Assembly (NCBI GenBank): GCA_019120545.1
Contig: DWUX01000216.1
Location: forward strand, 1 to 52,720
Direction: 5' to 3'
DNA: 52,720 nucleotides
DNA from: Candidatus Blautia stercoripullorum
GTDB taxonomy: Bacteria > Bacillota > Clostridia > Lachnospirales > Lachnospiraceae
Below the pieces are notes generated by a model, which saw only the letters and a list, made by a program, of their open reading frames with translations, was not told the DNA's origin and ran no database searches. Within the stretch, counting starts at the first letter, position 1; every line of letters begins with the position of its first letter. A program made the translations under genes and the position numbers. Positions 9,196-45,553 of the stretch are shown here, in pieces.

Positions 9196-9963
9196 TCACT
9201 CTAACAGATCCAGGATCCCCCGCACATCTCTCACCACGTAGTCTGCACCAGCATCCAGGTATGTCTTCTCTGCTTTTTTATCCGCGGCTTCCCTTTCTTC
9301 TTCTGTCAGAGCTTCGTACTCTTCCCGGGTCAGTCCCATTACAGAGCTTCCCTCCAGGACCCCTACAGTTACCAGTCCTGCATTTTTCCCTTCCAGAATG
9401 TCAGAAACTGTATCTCCCACTTTCATGACCCTGGATACATCCTTTAACTCCAGCTTTTCCATGTTCCGGAAAATCATGTAGGGATAGGGTCTGCCCTTTT
9501 TATTGGTAGAGTCCGGGCTGAACCAGCAGTCTGGGGAATAGCCCATCTGAGCGGCCTTTGGCACTACCAGAGCCATCATCTCATCGGTATATCCTGTGGT
9601 AGAGCCGATCTTCAATCCCATTTTCCGCAGCTTCTCTACGGTTTCTACCACGTAAGGTTTCGGCTCTCCATAATTTTCCACGATTTCCAGGATCTTGCTT
9701 TCGCTGAGTTCATAGACCTTCCGGACATCTTCTTCCGTCCATTTTTGCCCCTGTTTTTCCTCCCACAGCCGGGAGATCCGCTCCATGGACAGCATAGTCC
9801 TTACATGATCGATCTTCAGCATACCCATAGGTTTTCTCACTTCTTCCAGGGTAGGGGTGATCCCGTAATGTTCAAAGGCTTCAATAAAGGCTTTCACCGG
9901 GGCAAAGCAGCCGTAATCTACAGTAGTTCCCGCCCAGTCAAAAATAATTCCGTCAAATCTCAT
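9196..9963 (-). CDS. phnX: Phosphonoacetaldehyde hydrolase
   Basis: MRFDGIIFDWAGTTVDYGCFAPVKAFIEAFE HAD motif; adjacent to phnW; start moved to 9963 (SD ggaggagag). Confidence 0.93.
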   Translation of the reverse strand: MRFDGIIFDWAGTTVDYGCFAPVKAFIEAFEHYGITPTLEEVRKPMGMLKIDHVRTMLSMERISRLWEEKQGQKWTEEDVRKVYELSESKILEIVENYGEPKPYVVETVEKLRKMGLKIGSTTGYTDEMMALVVPKAAQMGYSPDCWFSPDSTNKKGRPYPYMIFRNMEKLELKDVSRVMKVGDTVSDILEGKNAGLVTVGVLEGSSVMGLTREEYEALTEEEREAADKKAEKTYLDAGADYVVRDVRGILDLLE

Positions 9964-9967
9964 AGTT

Positions 9968-11059
9968 TTATCTCTCCTCCAAAAATTCTCTGATGATACT
10001 GCAGAGTTTTTCAATATCTTCTTTATAGATCTCACCGATATTTCCGATACGGAAGGTGTCTGCGTCGGTTACTTTTCCCGGATAGATGGCATAGCCTCTA
10101 TCCTTGATATACTGGTACATTTCCTGGAAAGAAAAATTGTGGTGTTCCGGATACAGGAAGGTGGTGATGATCGGTCCCTGGTGTTCGCTGCCGATATAAG
10201 GATGGATCCCCATCTCTCCCATTTTCCGGATCAGCAGACGGTTGTTTTCCTCGTAGCGTTTGGCTCTGGCGGGAATCCCTCCCTCTTCTTCCATTTCCTT
10301 TAAGGCCTGGGCAAAAGCCAGAACCACATGGGTAGGGGAAGTAAATCTCCACTTGCCGTCTTTATTCATAGTCTCCCACTGGTCATAGAGATCCAGTGAC
10401 AGGCTTCTGGCTTTTCCTTTACTTTCCATAAGCTTTTCTCTGTTGCAGATGATAAAGGAGAATCCGGGCACGCCTTGGATACATTTATTGGCGCTGCTGA
10501 TGATAAAGTCGATCCCCAGATCCCCCACCGGGATATCCACCCCGCCGAAGCTGGACATAGCGTCTACGATAAAAGTCTTTCCCGCACCCTTGACCACCTT
10601 GGCCACAGAGGCAATATCATTTAAAATCCCGGAAGTGGTCTCACTGTGTACCATGGAAACATGAGTGATCTCCGGATGGTCTTCCAGGATCTCTCCGATT
10701 TTTTCCGCAGAAGGGATTTTGTTGTAGTCTTCCTCATACATCAGGTAATGGATCCCGGCGTGCCGGGCAATGTCTCCCATTCTCTCTCCATAGGCTCCGT
10801 TTGCCGCGATCAGAAGAGTATCCTCCTCTCCGATGACGCTGGTCAGTACAGACTCCACCCCGAAAGTCCCGCTGCCCTGCATAAGGACCACCGTATATTC
10901 AGGCTCGTTTACATGAGCCAGTTTCAGCAGCTTCTCCCTTATGGAAAGGGTGATCTTTTTATAATCATCATCCCAGGTGCAATGGTCGAAAAGCATTTCT
11001 TTTTTTACCGTGTCTGTAGTGGTCAGAGGACCCGGTGTAAGCAGTTTATAATTTGGCAT
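9968..11059 (-). CDS. phnW: 2-aminoethylphosphonate--pyruvate transaminase
   Basis: YKLLTPGPLTTTDTVKKEMLFDHCTWDDDY; class V aminotransferase, SSANKCIQGVPGFSF PLP region. Confidence 0.94.
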   Translation of the reverse strand: MPNYKLLTPGPLTTTDTVKKEMLFDHCTWDDDYKKITLSIREKLLKLAHVNEPEYTVVLMQGSGTFGVESVLTSVIGEEDTLLIAANGAYGERMGDIARHAGIHYLMYEEDYNKIPSAEKIGEILEDHPEITHVSMVHSETTSGILNDIASVAKVVKGAGKTFIVDAMSSFGGVDIPVGDLGIDFIISSANKCIQGVPGFSFIICNREKLMESKGKARSLSLDLYDQWETMNKDGKWRFTSPTHVVLAFAQALKEMEEEGGIPARAKRYEENNRLLIRKMGEMGIHPYIGSEHQGPIITTFLYPEHHNFSFQEMYQYIKDRGYAIYPGKVTDADTFRIGNIGEIYKEDIEKLCSIIREFLEER

Positions 11060-36085: not shown

Positions 36086-36245
36086 TCATGCTTTTTTGAA
36101 GCATGTCATCACTTCTTTATTTGGAATTGATACGTATCCGTTTTCGTAGTTCAAAAATCCATAGACGACCATAGCTGAGAATATCTCATTTTTCGTCCGG
36201 AGATTCATAGATGTGGCCGCATATTCTCTTACTTTTTTTCTGCAG
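36086..36245 (-). pseudogene. C-terminal remnant of an AAA-ATPase-like/PD-(D/E)XK (DUF1703-type) protein
   Basis: Minus-strand translation KVREYAATSMNLRTKNEIFSAMVVYGFLNYENGYVSIPNKEVMTCFKKA*. Confidence 0.65.
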
Positions 36246-36327: not shown

Positions 36328-37825
36328 TCAGTCAAAAGTCAGAGTTAAAATAAGCTTAAACGGCTTTTCCGGCAGCTCAACTATAAATACTTTTTCCTTC
36401 TCATCTGTTTTTCCCCTAAACTCCTGACCATTCACCAGAATTTTCTGTGGCTTTTTCCCGGATATCCATCCTACCCTTCCAGATTCTCCCAGTATCACAG
36501 TGACTCTGTTGCTGCTTTCGTATATATTTTCCACTGCTGTAAATCCTGCATATTTATCCAAAAGTCCCAGGCAGGCGCCATTTTCACCTTCCGGGAGAAT
36601 GACATACCAGCCAAAACCATCCGGCTCCATGGTTCCTTCATATTTTTCATTCCGGTCAAGGGAAAAAGCTTTCTTGCTGAAATAGTCATAAACCCGGTAA
36701 GTATGAGCAACTTCCAGATCGAGAATATCCCCTGGGCAGAAAGAAAAGGGCTGCATCCGGTCTGTGAGATTAAACACTGCCATTCCTCCGGCCTTTTTAT
36801 CGCCATAGGAAGCTATATTATGAAGCTTCAGAACGCCCTCCTTCATAGGATCTGAAAAAATGCAGTCCTGGGCAGGTTTTGCAGAACGGTCCATCATCAG
36901 GATCTTGCCATTCTGATAAGTAAGAGGCTTCAAAATTTCCGGGTCAGTAGCCCCCGGCTTATCACTGACATATACCGGTCCTCCGCTGACGGCTCTCAGC
37001 AGGCTGTGTTTCACGGCATCCTTGTGCATAGTCCAGAACATATCCCAGTCACAGCAGTACAGCTCGTTATGATACAGGGCATTGTATGCGTTCTGGAGAA
37101 GATGTTCCGCAAATCCGCCTTCTTCTTTGTCCGGCACAAAGTCGTCGCTGTTTCTGGAAACGGCAGTTGCCGGCCTTGCCAGGATATTTTCCATCGCCAT
37201 TCCCATACAGTTAATGACCCCTCCGTCCATGCGGGAAGCGCCGCTCTCCAGAGCTTCATTCATTCCCCGTACAGCCTGGGCCAGAGACAGATCATTTTCA
37301 AAATACCAGGTAGCCGAACTCTGTCCGTCTACCTTTACAAAGCTGATACCCTGGCGGTTCAGCAGCTCGTACCAGTCACGGTAAAATTTTTCTCCTGTCA
37401 CAGGGCTTGGAACCAGCTTGCCGCTCACTGTCTGATACAGATAGGGGGCTTCTCTCCGGGCCAGCGGGCTTTCCGGGACAATGCCTCCCCAGAATCCTCC
37501 CAGGGCATGCCAGACGCCCATCCACCGTATCCCGTTATTTTCTTTCAGCTCTTCTGTCATCTTCCGGAAACCTTCGGGAAATTTTTTCCGGTCCGGAGCA
37601 AAATCAGCCAGAAGCTCTTCCTTGTCATCCATGGTCATCCAGCCGTCATCGATCATCATCCATTTTACCGGGACATGTTTTTCAGAGAGTTCTTCCGCTT
37701 TGCGCCGGATTCCCTTTTCGCTGACTTCTCTGTAAAAGGCATCCCAGCTGCACCAGCCCAGATACCGGAACATTTCCGGGATCCGACGTTCTTCCCGGAT
37801 CCGGATCCCTTTATAATCCGCGATT
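36328..37825 (-). pseudogene. Catalytic/C-terminal part of a GH36 (raffinose synthase/Sip1-like alpha-galactosidase) gene; 5' end cut at the ICE junction
   Basis: LGWCSWDAFY at the start of the ORF; coding homology continues in frame upstream of the Met as ADYKGIRIREERRIPE until about 37825. Confidence 0.8.
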
Positions 37826-37843
37826 CATACAAATGCCTTATGT

Positions 37844-38275
37844 ATGGCTTTGTACAAAGAGGAAGCTTTCGATATAAGATACAAAGGCTCTTCTAAAGAA
37901 CTGATTCCTCCCAGGTCTGCGGTCATATCCAGGCAGAGACCCTCTTTCGTTCCGCCGGATATCAATTTGTATACCTTGAACTGGATATGTAAAACTGTTC
38001 TTGAGCTTCCCAAGGAATATCAAGAGGAGCTTCCCACGCTCTTACAATATTTTGATGATATTTATGCGATCCTCTATGCTTCCAGTAAAATCCAATATTA
38101 TGAGCATTGCAATAATATGGCGGACGTTGCAAGGGCATATCTGAAAGATGTTCCCTGGTTTTCGGGCCTCCCGGAAAATGTAAAGCAGTACTTTGATTAT
38201 GAAGGGTTTGGGGAACAGCTTCAATCAGAAAGCAGATATGTATTAGGGGAAAACGGAAGCTTCTGTTTTTCATAG
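37844..38275 (+). pseudogene. ArdA-like antirestriction protein, apparently only C-terminal part
   Basis: LNWICKTVLELPKEYQEELPTLLQYFDDI... ADVARAYLKDVPWFSGLPENVKQYFDYEGFGEQLQ resembles ArdA C-terminal half. Confidence 0.55.
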
Positions 38276-38281
38276 AAAGAA

Positions 38282-38479
38282 GTGCTTCTTATGATTGATA
38301 TGCAGGTCTATATTGCTAATCTGGGAAAGTATAACGAAGGGGAGCTTGTCGGAGCCTGGTTCACACCGCCTGTTGATTATGAAGAAATAGCAGAACAAAT
38401 CGGGTTAAATGAAGAATACGAAGAATATGCAATCCATGATTATGAGCTTCCTTTTACCGAAGATGAGGTAATCGAATGA
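38282..38479 (+). pseudogene. ardA: ArdA antirestriction protein, N-terminal fragment
   Basis: MQVYIANLGKYNEGELVGAWFTPPVDYEEIAEQIGLNEEYEEYAIHDYELPF then EDEVIE*. Confidence 0.85.
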
Positions 38480-39284
38480 CAAAAACTTTTAAAAAATCCC
38501 TTCCCATTTTCCTATTTCTTCCTTTTGCATTGCCGCCGCTACTCTCCTGTTTTTCCTAACCGGAAGGGCGGTACAAGCCGCAGGCCTAGTGGATAATACG
38601 ATAGATTCCTACCACTTGTATTCCAAATATCCTTTGGAAAATTATCAATTAGATTTCTATGTAGACAACTCCTGGAGCTGGCTTCCCTGGAATTGGGGAG
38701 ACGGGATCGGAAAACAATGCTACCGGATATGTGATCCAGCAGGCCTATAAACTGGATTTCATTGACGATATGGCAGATAGTGTCGGACAAGGTATCCAAA
38801 AACTTGCCGGAATCACCAGAAATGGATTTTCAAGTAGCGGTTTCTATGTCGGTTTCCTTCTTCTTTTGATCCTGGCTGTTGGTATCTATGTTGCCTATGC
38901 AGGACTTATCAAACGGGAAATAAACAAAGCTGTCCACGCTGTCGTGAATTTTCTTGTTATTTTCCTGTTATCCTCCTGCTTTATCGCCTATGCTCCTAAT
39001 ACTATAAAAATGGTAAATGAATTTTCTTCTGATATCAGCACTGCCGCCCTTGATTTAGGGACAGGATTAATCGCCCCGGATTCCGAAAGTGAGGACAGTG
39101 TGAGCCTAATAAGAGATACCTTGTTTTCTATCCAGGTAAGGCAGCCATGGCTTCTGCTACAGTTTGGAAGCAGTAACATAGAAGAGCTTGGAGAAGACCG
39201 TGTGGAAGCTCTGCTGTCAATCAGCCCAGCCCTGAATGATGGAAAAGACCGGGAAAATGCTGTAAAGGCGGAAGCGGTAAAGGT
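38476..39284 (+). pseudogene. Tn916 orf15-like conjugal membrane protein with frameshift and internal plus C-terminal deletions
   Basis: VDNTIDSYHLYSKYPLENYQLDFYVDNSWSWLPWNWGDGIGK | ATGYVIQQAYKLDFIDDMADSVGQ... KDRENAVKAE |. Confidence 0.85.
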
Positions 39285-40031
39285 TCTGATGTCATGCAGG
39301 CCAGCGAATCCCTGGGCCTCCCTCCTAACACTTCAGGAACAGACGAATCTATCCGCCAGGGCTGCCGCTACCTGTCCAGCCTGATCCAGTCTGTAAACGC
39401 CAGGGAATGTGATATAAACACCGCTATACAGGCCTATAATTTCGGCGGCCAATATATCAGCTATGTATCGGATAATGGAAAAAAGCACAGTTATAATCTA
39501 GCTGAAAACTTTGCAAAAGAAAAATCCGGGGGAAGAACAGTCACATACACAAACCCCATTGCTGTTGCCAGAAATGGCGGCTGGCGGTATGCCTATGGCA
39601 ATCAATTTTATGTGGAAATCGTCAGCCAATATCTGGCTGTGGAAAGTTTTGATAATGAGACTGTGCAGATCATCATGAATGAAGCCTTGAAATATGAGGG
39701 CTGGAAATATGTATATGGCGGTGCTAATCCCAATACGTCCTTTGATTGCAGCGGTCTGACACAGTGGTGTTACGCAAAGGCCGGGATCAGCCTCCCCCGT
39801 ACAGCACAAGCACAATATGACGCAACCCAGCACATTTCCATGTCAGAGGCCAGGCCTGGAGATTTAGTCTTTTTCCACAGTACCTATAATGCAGGAGATT
39901 ATGTTACCCATGTAGGAATCTATGTATCCCCTACAAAAATGTATCATGCCGGTTCCTCCGGTATCGGATATGCTGATCTGACTTCCAGTTATTATCAGCA
40001 ACATCTGATTGGGGCCGGAAGGATCAAATAA
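39285..40031 (+). pseudogene. Tn916 orf14-like lysozyme/NlpC-P60 protein, N-terminally truncated
   Basis: DVMQASESLGLPPNTSGTDESIRQG... plus NlpC/P60 YVYGGANPNTSFDCSGLTQWCY. Confidence 0.85.
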
Positions 40032-40048
40032 TAGAAAGAAGGTTAAAA

Positions 40049-40933
40049 ATGTTTCGGAAAAATAAAGAAAAGAGAGTGCGTACCATGAAGGTAGGCACAC
40101 ATAGAAAATCAGTCATTGCCTTGTGGCTCCTGCTGATCGGCAGCGTGTCCTTTGGTATCTACAAAAATTTTACGGCCATAGACCAACATACCACCCACGA
40201 AAAAGAGATTATACAGCTACAGCTAAATGATACTTCCGGGATTGAAAATTTCGTGAAGGACTTTGCCAGGGCTTTTTATGAGTGGGAAAATAACGAAGAA
40301 AGCATACAGGCCCGGACGGCAGCTATCAGTAACTACCTCACACCGGAGCTTCAGGATTTGAATATGGACACTGTACGAACGGATATCCCTACCTGCTCTT
40401 ATGTCAATGACGTGCAAATATGGGATATTAAAGAAGCCGGGGATCAGGAATATCAGATAAAATATTCTGTAGAACAATATGTTACCAAAGGAGAGGAAGC
40501 AACGACTGTAGAATCTTTTTTTGAAACTACCGTCCATGTAGACAGCACTGGAAACATGGTAATCGTCCAAAGCCCTGTCCCGGCCAGCAGGCCAGAGAAA
40601 TCAGATTATGAGCCAAAGGCTCCTGAATCTGATGGAAGTGTAGACGCAAAAACGATCCAGGAGGCCACCGATTTCCTGGAAACCTTTTTCAAGCTATACC
40701 CTACAGCCACAGAGGAAGAATTGGCATATTATGTGGAAGATTATGCTCTGGAACCAATAGAAGAAGACTATATTTTTTCAGAACTTATTAATCCGATTTT
40801 CAAAAAAGAAGAAGAAAACATAAAAGTTCACGTAAACGTGGCATTTATAGACCAGAATACGAAAGCAACTATTATTTCGGGATATGATTTAACCATAAAA
40901 AAAGAAGAAAACTGGCTTCTTATATCATCTTAA
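40049..40933 (+). CDS. Conjugal transfer protein TcpC/Orf13
   Basis: Full-length-looking 294 aa, N-terminal TM, TcpC family pattern; follows orf14. Confidence 0.87.
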   Translation: MFRKNKEKRVRTMKVGTHRKSVIALWLLLIGSVSFGIYKNFTAIDQHTTHEKEIIQLQLNDTSGIENFVKDFARAFYEWENNEESIQARTAAISNYLTPELQDLNMDTVRTDIPTCSYVNDVQIWDIKEAGDQEYQIKYSVEQYVTKGEEATTVESFFETTVHVDSTGNMVIVQSPVPASRPEKSDYEPKAPESDGSVDAKTIQEATDFLETFFKLYPTATEEELAYYVEDYALEPIEEDYIFSELINPIFKKEEENIKVHVNVAFIDQNTKATIISGYDLTIKKEENWLLISS

Positions 40934-40961
40934 AGTGAACCTCCCTGAAAGCATAAAAGTC

Positions 40962-41008
40962 AGAAGAGGAATATGCAAGAAATTTGCCTTCTTGCATATC
41001 CCTCTTCT
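40962..41008. other. Strong 18-bp-stem hairpin lacking a clear T-tract
   Basis: agaagaggaatatgcaag aaatttgcctt cttgcatatccctcttct. Confidence 0.7.
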
Positions 41009-41128
41009 AAATATCAAATAAAAGTCTAAAGAGTAGCAATGAGTTTAACATTTTTGCCATCCTCCAATCCATTCATTTTTAGAATAACTCTTGAATTATT
41101 ATTATATCTCATCTAAAATAATAAAAAA

Positions 41129-41995
41129 ATGAAAGGAGTTTCTATTATGAAAAAGAAATTTATCTTAGGTATGGTTACCTGTTTTATTCTATTATTTACT
41201 TGCAGTTGTTCTTTATTTGATTCAACCTCAAAAGACAAAGTTTCTACCTCACAGAATAGTATAGAAGAGCCAAAATCTGATACTCCTTCAGAAACACAAA
41301 AAAATAATAACTCCAGCAATACAGAGTCTGAAAATTCTAATACTACCGATACAGATAAAGATACAAATAGCGAACCGGAATCCAGCAATGAGTCAGAAAA
41401 TGACGCCTCTATTAACGGTGATTCTTCTTTACCCAATAATGCTGATTCTTCAAACAGTGATTCTTCCACAAATAGCAATGAAGAAGAGACTTCACCAACT
41501 ATTCAAACTACTGTTGGTTATGTGCTTTCATGTGAAGGAAATACAATGTACGTAGATTTGCAAAACACCGGTGGCAGACTTTATCCTGGGGAAGGTGAAA
41601 ATCGTAAGGTGGCATTTGACATATCAAATGCTGAGCGAGTCCAAACCAATATTTCAGAGTTTAATCCTGCCAGAAATAATCTTATACGACCAGGAATTCA
41701 AGTAAATATTGAGTACTATATTAAAAATCAAACTAATATTGCTACTAAGCTCACTTCTGATGGAGATGAAATGGAGCCATATAGTCCTGTAGCAATAGGA
41801 AAAGTAATAGCCGTGACAGATACAGAAGTCAGCATAACTGTCACGGAAGGTGAGAATATTGGTGAGAATATTTCTTTTGATTTAACTAATTGTGATTCAA
41901 ATGGAGATACAATATCTATTGACAGCCAAGTAGCCATAGCTTACTATACAAGTCAAGATATAAATTATGCTGTTTATATTGAATCCGTATCTTAA
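41129..41995 (+). CDS. Putative lipoprotein with long Ser/Asn/Glu-rich linker and C-terminal beta-type domain
   Basis: FILLFTCSCSLFD lipobox; low-complexity linker; distinct AT-rich composition; start could be M at 41147. Confidence 0.75.
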   Translation: MKGVSIMKKKFILGMVTCFILLFTCSCSLFDSTSKDKVSTSQNSIEEPKSDTPSETQKNNNSSNTESENSNTTDTDKDTNSEPESSNESENDASINGDSSLPNNADSSNSDSSTNSNEEETSPTIQTTVGYVLSCEGNTMYVDLQNTGGRLYPGEGENRKVAFDISNAERVQTNISEFNPARNNLIRPGIQVNIEYYIKNQTNIATKLTSDGDEMEPYSPVAIGKVIAVTDTEVSITVTEGENIGENISFDLTNCDSNGDTISIDSQVAIAYYTSQDINYAVYIESVS

Positions 41996-42018
41996 TTATA
42001 ACTTGTTTTAACTGAGTT

Positions 42019-42048
42019 AAAAGGAGCTAGTAAATAAGCTCCTTTTTG
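42019..42048 (+). terminator. Intrinsic terminator of the lipoprotein gene
   Basis: aaaaggagctagtaaataagctccttttt. Confidence 0.8.
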
Positions 42049-42061
42049 TTTACAGTTATGA

Positions 42062-42098
42062 GCTTTCATACTTTGTTATAAATGAAAGCAATTTTTTC
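42062..42098 (+). terminator. Second tandem terminator-like hairpin
   Basis: gctttcatactttgttataaatgaaagcaatttttt. Confidence 0.6.
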
Positions 42099-42283
42099 AT
42101 AAAACCTCTGCTATCAACCCTAGAGGATTAAAAGCACGCCGACTCACCACCTGAAGTGATCCACTCAGGGCGCAAATTTGGCAACATTGGGATTTTCAGT
42201 TTAACTTTTGAAATTTCTTTACGTCAAATACCTTATAGGTAATGAGAAGTTTTTCTCAGGCACCTTGACAGCAGAATATTAGT

Positions 42284-42581
42284 GGTGAAAGCCGGTCTTG
42301 TCCACCATGGGTTAAACATATACATGGCAGTTCATTTTCTCCGGCTGTTCCATGGGAAGATAAATCTTCACCGGTCTCCCTGCCCGAAGATTAAAGTTCT
42401 CCATATTAGAAGTGTTTTGAATGCGAAGGCAGATCTCCCCCAGGCAGCAGTCCTTTGTCATATGTTCTGCCATTTCTACATAAAGCCCTTCTTCTTCCCG
42501 GCCTTCTGTGTTCAGAGTGATTTCCGGGTAAAAACTTTTTCCTTTCTGACAGTATATCTCACATCTTACATTTTCCCTCAT
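42284..42581 (-). pseudogene. N-terminal part of the split GH36/Sip1-like gene, with +1 frameshift
   Basis: MRENVRCEIYCQKGKSFYP...RPVKIYLPMEQPEKMN then, in another frame, AMYMFNPWWTRPAFT; SD aaaggaaa before ATG. Confidence 0.65.
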
Positions 42582-42694
42582 ATATATTTCCTTTCTTATT
42601 CTTATAATCTTACAGCTGACGCCAACCGGGGAGGTAAGGATACAGGCATGCCGCCGCATCCTTGCCTCCCCGGCCACGGTGCAGACTATATTTT

Positions 42695-42904
42695 TTATTC
42701 CCACTTTGCAAACAACATGCAAGTGCCGCTTCTGTGGTACATTTCAATAGTTTTTTCCAGGCGTTCCCGGTCTACCCGGAGGTATTCTGCCTGGCAGTCA
42801 AGACACATAAATTCCTTTGAAGCTATACCGAACAATTTTCTGTGCAGAGCGATCTCATCAGACATGAGCCCTGCCCCGCATTTCATGCAGATATGATCCG
42901 TCAT
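42695..42904 (-). CDS. Small zinc-ribbon-like protein
   Basis: CMKCGAG...CLDC; ATGA overlap with the GH27 stop. Confidence 0.7.
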   Translation of the reverse strand: MTDHICMKCGAGLMSDEIALHRKLFGIASKEFMCLDCQAEYLRVDRERLEKTIEMYHRSGTCMLFAKWE

Positions 42905-44055
42905 TTTCTCGGCACCACTTTACATCTGTAGACTTTTGATCCATGTGCCGGAACTTTAACTGAAAATCTCTCTCTTTTCTTTCCCAGATTTTCATGGTCA
43001 ATGCAGTCATAAAACTCCAGAGCCATTCCTGAGCTTACTGTCAGTCCCAGATCCCAGAAATCCACAACCGCCATTGCAGGTACATCTCCCATATTAAACA
43101 TCCCAACTGCTACATCCCCATTCGATAAAAATTTTACCAGTATAAACACATCAGGGCTGTTAGACAGACAGTTTACCCGGAAAGGAGCGCGGCATTCTGT
43201 ATCCTGATTAATGGCGATCAGATCTTTATTCAGCAGGATCTTCTTCGTCTCCTCTGTAAGGTTTCTCACATCGCAGCCGATCATCAGGGGAGAATTCATC
43301 ATAGCCCAAAGGGAGAAATGGGTCTGATACTCTTCGTCTGTACATCCGCCGGCGGAAATATATTCATTTCCTCCTTTTCCATGGAGGCCCACTACCAGCA
43401 TGTCCATATCGTTATGGCAGAAAGGACCGGAAAAAGCCATTTTATCCATCTGGGAAAGGGCAATATCCTTTATAGAATTCCAGCAGTCTGTAATGTCCTG
43501 GGTGGAGCGGAACAGATGAGCTCCTGTGGAACTGATCCACTCATGAACGGACTCCGTCCCCCACTGGCAGGCGGAAAAAACAATATCTCTTCCTGAATTT
43601 GCCAGAGCCAGGCCCATTCTCCGGTACAAAGTTCTGCAGTCCTGAAACTGGGGCTTAAAGCAGTTGTCATACTTCAGATAATCTACGCCCCACTGGGCAA
43701 ACTGACGGGCGTCTTCATATTCATGTTCAAAACTTCCGGGATAATCCGCGCAGGTCCTTGTGCCGCAGCAGCTGTACATTCCAAACTTAAATCCCTTATC
43801 GTGGACATAGTCAGCCAGAGCTTTTATGCCATTGGGAAATTTTTCCGGATCCGCTACCAGCCTGTCTTCGCTGTCCCGCTCCTTCAGGCTCCAGCAGTCG
43901 TCCATTACTACATACTCATAACCTGCTTCCAGGAATCCCTGGTCTTTCATTGCGTCAACCGTCTCTTTGATCAGATCTTCGCTGATCTTATCGGTAAAAG
44001 TATTCCATGAGTTCCATCCCATGGGAGGAACTGCACACATTGCTTTTCTGTTCAT
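42901..44055 (-). CDS. GH27 alpha-galactosidase
   Basis: PPMGWNSWNTF, YVVMDDCW, DYLKYDNC (nucleophile), DITDCWNS. Confidence 0.92.
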   Translation of the reverse strand: MNRKAMCAVPPMGWNSWNTFTDKISEDLIKETVDAMKDQGFLEAGYEYVVMDDCWSLKERDSEDRLVADPEKFPNGIKALADYVHDKGFKFGMYSCCGTRTCADYPGSFEHEYEDARQFAQWGVDYLKYDNCFKPQFQDCRTLYRRMGLALANSGRDIVFSACQWGTESVHEWISSTGAHLFRSTQDITDCWNSIKDIALSQMDKMAFSGPFCHNDMDMLVVGLHGKGGNEYISAGGCTDEEYQTHFSLWAMMNSPLMIGCDVRNLTEETKKILLNKDLIAINQDTECRAPFRVNCLSNSPDVFILVKFLSNGDVAVGMFNMGDVPAMAVVDFWDLGLTVSSGMALEFYDCIDHENLGKKRERFSVKVPAHGSKVYRCKVVPRK

Positions 44056-44204
44056 TTTTTATTTCCTCTCCGCTATCATATTTTCTTAATTGTAACCTTT
44101 GCCTTTCATAAAATAAATGGTAACAATATGCACTGAATGGTAAATTCTTGCCATATTCATCTCAAAAGTATATAATAAAGAAAACTTTTCACGGAGGGCT
44201 TCCT

Positions 44205-45083
44205 ATGCTTTCTATTATGCACCAGCATATCGGTTTCAGCTCATCTTCAGATCTGGCTTTACTGACACTGAAAGGAATAGGTCTTCAGTATATAGATACA
44301 CCTTCCTACTCCTGGGACAATCGAAACCGTAAAGATTCACACTGCACTATCCAATATTGTATTGACGGCGAAGGAGCCATTGAGGCTGACGGAATCAAAT
44401 ATCCTCTGCGTCAAAAGGATGCTTTTATCATCGATATACCGGGAGCCAGCCATTATTATCTGCCAAAGCATTCTTCCCACTGGGAATTTATATATCTGGA
44501 ATTTACCAAAGAATGTCTTCCCTTACTATGGAAAATACACCGGACCATCGGTCCTGTTATCCACTTTCCGGAAGACTCTCTATTTTTCAGAAGGATGATG
44601 GAAATTTATGATATGGCCCTTAACAATGAATTGAAATCCTATTTTGAAAATGCCAGGATTTCCTATGACTTCTGGCTGCGGCTGACAGAATATGCCATGA
44701 CCTTATCGGTCAGTGAAATTTCAAAGGTGGATCATGCCAAAGCTTTTATAGATCAGAATTACTACATGGAGGATCTGAACCTGGATCTGATAGCTGGTCA
44801 TGCAGGCATGTCCAAGTATTCCTTGTGTAAAGAATTCCACAAAAAATACGGAGTCTCTCCGGGAAAATATCTCAGAGAACTCCGTATCTCTCAGGCTTGC
44901 CGCCTGCTTATGACAAAGTCTGATCATACACTGCAGGAAATTGCCCAGATGGTAGGCTATTCCAATAATAATTATTTTGGAAAAGTTTTCAAAGCAGAAA
45001 AAGGTATCAGCCCTGATAAATACCGGAAACAATCTGTTAAATACGATCTTGTCCGTGCTGTGTATGAGACGCCCCTTATCTAA
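44205..45083 (+). CDS. AraC-family transcriptional regulator
   Basis: Cupin-like N-term; HTH QIAQ(EI)AQMVGYSNNNYFGKVFKAEKGISPDKYRK; start at SD ggaggg / ATG 44205. Confidence 0.9.
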   Translation: MLSIMHQHIGFSSSSDLALLTLKGIGLQYIDTPSYSWDNRNRKDSHCTIQYCIDGEGAIEADGIKYPLRQKDAFIIDIPGASHYYLPKHSSHWEFIYLEFTKECLPLLWKIHRTIGPVIHFPEDSLFFRRMMEIYDMALNNELKSYFENARISYDFWLRLTEYAMTLSVSEISKVDHAKAFIDQNYYMEDLNLDLIAGHAGMSKYSLCKEFHKKYGVSPGKYLRELRISQACRLLMTKSDHTLQEIAQMVGYSNNNYFGKVFKAEKGISPDKYRKQSVKYDLVRAVYETPLI

Positions 45084-45170
45084 AGGATACCTGGTACGGC
45101 CGGCTCACATACCTGCTGCCTGTTTTATTTTTGGAAAGATATCTATGGTAAAATATTGCCATGTTCCTTT

Positions 45171-45533
45171 TTATTGGAGTTCCTGCTTTAGCTTTGGATT
45201 TACAATGAAGAAAAATAAGAGCAGACTGTTCCCTAAGATTTCTTTTGCCTGCTGATGATTCTTCTGTCCCAGGCTGATACTCATAAAAGAGGCACCGCCG
45301 ATCCCTACCATATAAGCGAATGCGGTAACTGCCGTCAATGCCGGAGTGCATACGCCGATACCGGCAAGAGCGATCCCTCCCGTTTCGGGGATCTGTCCTA
45401 CAAAGATCCGGTCCACAATGCTGTACAGCATATTAAAAAACTGGCCGAACATAGCCGGGATCCCCAGACGGAGGACCAGGCTCCTGACCGATGTTTTCTC
45501 CAGTAATTCTTCCGTTGTATTCAATTCAGACAT
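45171..45533 (-). pseudogene. MATE-family transporter, N-terminal fragment only
   Basis: RSLVLRLGIPAMFGQFFNMLYSIVDRIFVGQIPETGG..., ends after about 110 aa. Confidence 0.8.
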
Positions 45534-45553
45534 TTCTGGTTTCGTTCCGGAAC

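Follow-up and report, generated by a model that had tools for sequence, protein, structure and literature searches.

The PF05691 (raffinose synthase/Sip1-like GH36) gene of Candidatus Blautia stercoripullorum is interrupted by a 4,323-bp insert that includes debris of a ConjTn916-family conjugation module. The interruption of a single gene is confirmed directly by comparison with two related genomes in which the gene is whole. The window analyzed, meaning the whole stretch of DNA under study, is DWUX01000216.1 positions 1-52,720 (52,720 nt) of assembly GCA_019120545.1. This one draft assembly of 261 contigs is the sole genome for the species. Homologues were collected in a scan that took one genome per species and gave 80 loci with a PF05691 gene. 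The nearest loci were L021, from Candidatus Blautia stercorigallinarum, and L022, with 97% and 90% protein identity, respectively, to the catalytic piece. L157, from a different Blautia-genus genome, was used as the reference intact ConjTn916-type module. The case was not found described in a literature search. The features of the window are collected in Table 1.

Table 1. Positions of the host gene pieces, their lesions, the components of the insert and two neighboring genes in the window.
Feature	Position	Strand	Basis
3' part of the broken PF05691 gene: 481-aa open frame, 62 upstream host codons and junction	36328..37962	-	DNA identity; Pfam PF05691
Nonsense mutation, TGG (W) to TGA, within the host gene	37825..37827	-	FVWIADYKG in L021 and L022, FV*IADYKG in the window
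ArdA-1, C-terminal half, cut off at the left junction	37963..38275	+	PF07275 profile 64-152; tblastx to L157, first of its two tandem ardA genes
ArdA-2, N-terminal half, 3' end deleted	38282..38479	+	PF07275 profile 1-54; 75% aa to L157 9890-10048
Tn916 orf15-like (VirB6-type) fragment, 3' half gone, ~60-bp frame-breaking gap	38493..39273	+	tblastx to L157 13379-14227; frames
orf14-like lysozyme/NlpC-P60 peptidase without N-terminus	39276..40031	+	PF13702, PF00877; tblastx to L157 15799-16560
TcpC (orf13-like), full-length open frame	40049..40933	+	PF12642 E=7e-52; 61% aa to L157 16610-17470
Lipoprotein-like gene, low-complexity linker and conserved C-terminal domain	41129..41995	+	Whole gene 71-73% identical in DNA to sbcD-lgt homologues, conserved part 78%
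Tail, single copy in the genome	41996..42285	.	299 family genomes without a close match; no Rfam match
5' portion of the broken PF05691 gene, start codon 42581	42286..42581	-	Alignment; 97.6% to L021, 93% to L022
Frameshift in the 5' piece by one extra A, either of two neighboring As	42331..42332	-	Absent from both relatives
Intact neighboring GH27 alpha-galactosidase	42901..44055	-	PF16499/PF17801
AraC-family regulator of the cassette	44148..45083	+	PF12833; 85% to relatives, flanks ~98% to L021

Two pieces of one PF05691 gene

The Pfam profile search matched PF05691 (Raffinose_syn) to the minus-strand catalytic piece at 36328-37773 (E=3.8e-55), with a score of 187.5 bits over the catalytic domain against a curated cut-off of 20; the intact relative scored 217 bits. 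The coding homology that the first-pass annotation had reported upstream of the apparent Met is present. On the minus strand it extends upstream of 37773, past the in-frame TGA, and adds 62 further host codons. The left junction had been put at about 37826 and is moved by the alignment to 37962/37963, about 137 bp further in. The DNA of this 3' part is 97.8% identical to L021 9812-11536 and 90.7% identical to L022. On the other side of the insert, the 5' piece reads from its ATG as MRENVRC...MEQPEKMN and then as TAMYMFNPWWTRPAFT in the +1 frame, while L021 and L022 both read ...EKMTAMYMFNPWWTRPAF within a single ORF.

The two pieces were assigned to one gene, as had been proposed, for several reasons. 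First, in both relatives a single ORF of about 677 codons runs without interruption from the equivalent ATG, with the same neighbors at the syntenic site. The empty site, for which a comparison with related strains had been suggested, is thus found in both: the insert at 37963-42285 stands in place of 107 bp of L021 and 106 bp of L022. Secondly, in 78 of the 80 family loci 150 or more open codons lie ahead of the catalytic part, and therefore the short forms do not make up an established pair of genes. Third, the short +1 peptide was matched at the expected place in 77 of 80 homologues, most often 99 codons ahead of the Met that opens the 481-aa frame of the window. Lastly, the best score of this peptide was 52.4 bits, compared with 26.9 for the highest-scoring of 500 shuffles. 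The possibility that the N-terminal piece is an independent small gene was also considered. It was ruled out by the peptide matches and the upstream codons of the homologous loci, and because the piece at 42312-42722 has no Pfam family match of its own.

Lesions and catalytic residues

The host gene carries two inactivating mutations in addition to the insert. The single inserted A described in the first-pass annotation was verified by alignment with L021 and L022; the DNA around it reads ATGAACTGCC in the window and ATGACTGCC in both relatives. The change of a W codon to a stop is a second inactivating mutation, which had been missed. The loss of host sequence was smaller than the roughly 100 codons first estimated, since host codons still present had been counted as lost; the actual loss is about 107 bp (36 codons). 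The alignment with both relatives also places a one-codon insertion beside the SDDF motif, in the window lineage only. Non-synonymous and synonymous changes in the gene number 13:8 in the window lineage versus 6:12 in the sister lineage, a difference suggestive of relaxed selection, although it falls short of significance (Fisher p=0.11).

The sequences KVDGQ and RNSDDF are both present in the window piece, and we take KVD to be the nucleophile and SDD the acid/base motif of the PF05691 gene product. In the relative, these align with the KVD and SDDF motifs of the Arabidopsis “probable galactinol-sucrose galactosyltransferase 6” (PDB 7exf), which shares its catalytic domain with the window gene. 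The intact protein of the relatives aligns with 7exf over residues 120-528 (E=3.5e-58). In contrast to 7exf, the window gene is split, frameshifted and interrupted by a premature stop. A continuous N-terminal domain in one frame is not found, and because of the frameshift, insert and stop codon the window gene is regarded as a pseudogene of the PF05691 family and not as a working member. The name alpha-galactosidase applies to the broken gene at the family level, and its product could also have been a transglycosylase. The open frame and both aligned motifs of the 481-aa 3' piece would favor its being kept as a working shortened enzyme, but this is very improbable. The piece is without the approximately 196 N-terminal residues found in nearly all homologues, has lineage-only non-synonymous changes and the added codon beside SDDF, and shows, by eye only, no clear ribosome-binding site at its ATG.

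Composition of the insert

The module of L157 has the order ardA-1, ardA-2, TcpE-like, VirB4, orf15, orf14, TcpC. The ArdA, orf15, orf14 and TcpC sequences of the insert are collinear with it and thus follow the Tn916 order. Relative to L157, about 3.3 kb of the module (TcpE, VirB4) is gone immediately ahead of the orf15-like fragment, and about 1.57 kb is absent between the orf15-like and orf14-like pieces. In L157 itself, two divergent ardA-like genes lie in tandem (9375-10399) in a ConjTn916-type ICE of the genus.

A search of ORFs and Pfam families in the insert identified no integrase, relaxase, coupling protein or VirB4. VirB4 had no match anywhere in the genome of the window, and the same query recovered intact copies in three control relatives. 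Since these four signature genes (PMC4701971) are absent, the insert is a remnant and not an ICE. It is present once in the genome, where neither further copies nor an intact sibling ICE were found. No tRNA or Rfam feature was found as an integration site, and in plasmid and phage collections the conjugation genes were matched at 60-80% only. The left junction falls inside ardA, and the right end is a 290-bp sequence without a close match. The description of the insert as a Tn916-like ICE remnant therefore holds for about 37963-40933, where the L157 gene order and the Pfam matches (TcpC, NlpC/P60, lysozyme-like, ArdA) agree. It is not supported for the last 1.2 kb or so, because the lipoprotein has non-ICE homologues and the tail is without a matched origin.

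Streptococci are well known to carry decayed Tn916-family elements, and Tn916 prefers AT-rich targets (PMC4701971). The insert resembles the ConjTn916-family dICEs and ICE remnants of streptococci in the order of its ArdA, orf15, orf14 and TcpC module and in its missing signature genes. However, without integrase, relaxase, coupling protein and VirB4 it is more decayed than the dICEs counted in that study. It also differs from the streptococcal dICEs in that it sits within an ORF and is then followed by a chromosomal-type lipoprotein gene (PMC4701971).

The lipoprotein homologues of the relatives are 90-98% identical among themselves and 71-73% identical to the copy in the insert. The lipoprotein was considered as ICE cargo, and this was rejected because in the relatives examined (G015, G006 and G019 by context; G012 by collinear DNA match) the homologues are flanked by sbcD and lgt, and ICE genes are absent from the vicinity. 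At sbcD-lgt, the genome of the window has a polysaccharide-deacetylase-like gene (named by eye) instead of the lipoprotein. A divergent copy of the lipoprotein family is located in the insert, and another paralogue on C212 (loci compared: window 41129-41995; L174 (G000 C181) 1203-2453; L158 6264-7055). For the tail, only matches of 24-35 bp were found among 299 family genomes and none in Rfam. The insert may have been retained for host benefit, for example with its lipoprotein replacing the homologue missing at sbcD-lgt, but this is improbable; if true, debris that killed one gene would have supplied another.

The surrounding alpha-galactoside cassette

In L021, the AraC gene is surrounded by genes for a melibiase-type GH36, a solute-binding protein, two permeases and a DUF624 protein, and a 552-aa AAA-ATPase/PD-(D/E)XK gene adjoins the PF05691 gene. 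L022 is collinear with L021 across the cassette. The window has AraC, GH27, the PF05691 gene and an aldo/keto reductase in the same order as this intact cassette, but it is without the melibiase, the sugar ABC transporter and the DUF624 gene, and its AAA-ATPase gene is truncated. The transporter genes (binding protein, two permeases) and the DUF624 gene, which both relatives have, are gone between AraC and GH27 (window 44081-44086 versus L021 4028-7898). The melibiase-type GH36 (L021 739-2955) is gone from window 45085-45540, and the AAA-ATPase/PD-(D/E)XK gene has been cut to a 130-bp stretch by two deletions (window 36098-36236). No close copy of the melibiase, solute-binding protein, permeases or DUF624 gene was found elsewhere in the genome of the window. 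The 45085-45540 stretch in the place of the melibiase resembles, by eye, a MATE-transporter gene that is truncated and lies on the minus strand.

The AraC segment (44081-45084) shares 85% identity with each of the two relatives, which between themselves share 93.6%. Because of this low identity relative to its flanks, the change in this region may be partly a recombinational replacement and not a plain deletion. It is possible, on sequence grounds, that the segment was recombined from elsewhere.

Origin of the interruption

It is highly probable that a once intact PF05691 gene was broken by foreign DNA that included a ConjTn916-family module, and that deletions and then further mutations followed in the dead gene. 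We infer the sequence in which these events took place, entry by means of an ICE integrase and the loss of function as follows. Foreign DNA with the conjugation module would have entered the gene after the split from the closest sequenced relative. Deletions would then have taken both module ends, the VirB4 and TcpE genes, parts of orf15 and orf14, and about 107 bp of the host gene. The nonsense mutation and the 1-bp insertion would have built up once the gene was dead. The cassette is also without its transporter and its second GH36. It is plausible that an intact ICE integrated first and that both of its ends were lost later. Several points were counted against this explanation: the excess of non-synonymous changes is not significant, the 481-aa piece is still an open frame that has kept KVD and SDDF, the insert retains neither an ICE end nor an integrase or coupling sequence, and the species is represented by a single assembly.

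A different origin, in which ICE fragments, the lipoprotein gene and other DNA were captured as filler where the host gene had broken, about 107 bp of it being lost at the same time, is rather unlikely but would fit several features. The insert has neither ICE ends nor an integrase, its ICE part starts inside ardA, the lipoprotein has non-ICE homologues, the 290-bp tail has no matched source, and two independent end deletions would be expected to remove more of the host gene than was lost. However, the genes from ArdA to TcpC keep the order and orientation that they have in an ICE, and for that part one element with internal deletions is simpler. A misjoin of the insert into the gene during assembly might be suspected from a single genome in 261 contigs, yet it is very improbable. 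Both flanks belong to the same gene of the same lineage, the single-copy insert has no other ICE copy to drive a repeat-based join, and the nonsense and frameshift mutations sit away from the junctions and independently mark the gene as dead.

Breakage of the PF05691 gene by foreign DNA makes this a case of ordinary pseudogenisation in a decaying sugar-use gene cluster, and no new system is involved. For annotation, two ORFs that look unrelated and what seems to be a 481-aa enzyme all derive from a single dead gene. Thus, counting it as an alpha-galactosidase would overstate the raffinose-type sugar use of the strain. The surrounding gene losses suggest that the lineage is losing part of its alpha-galactoside trait.
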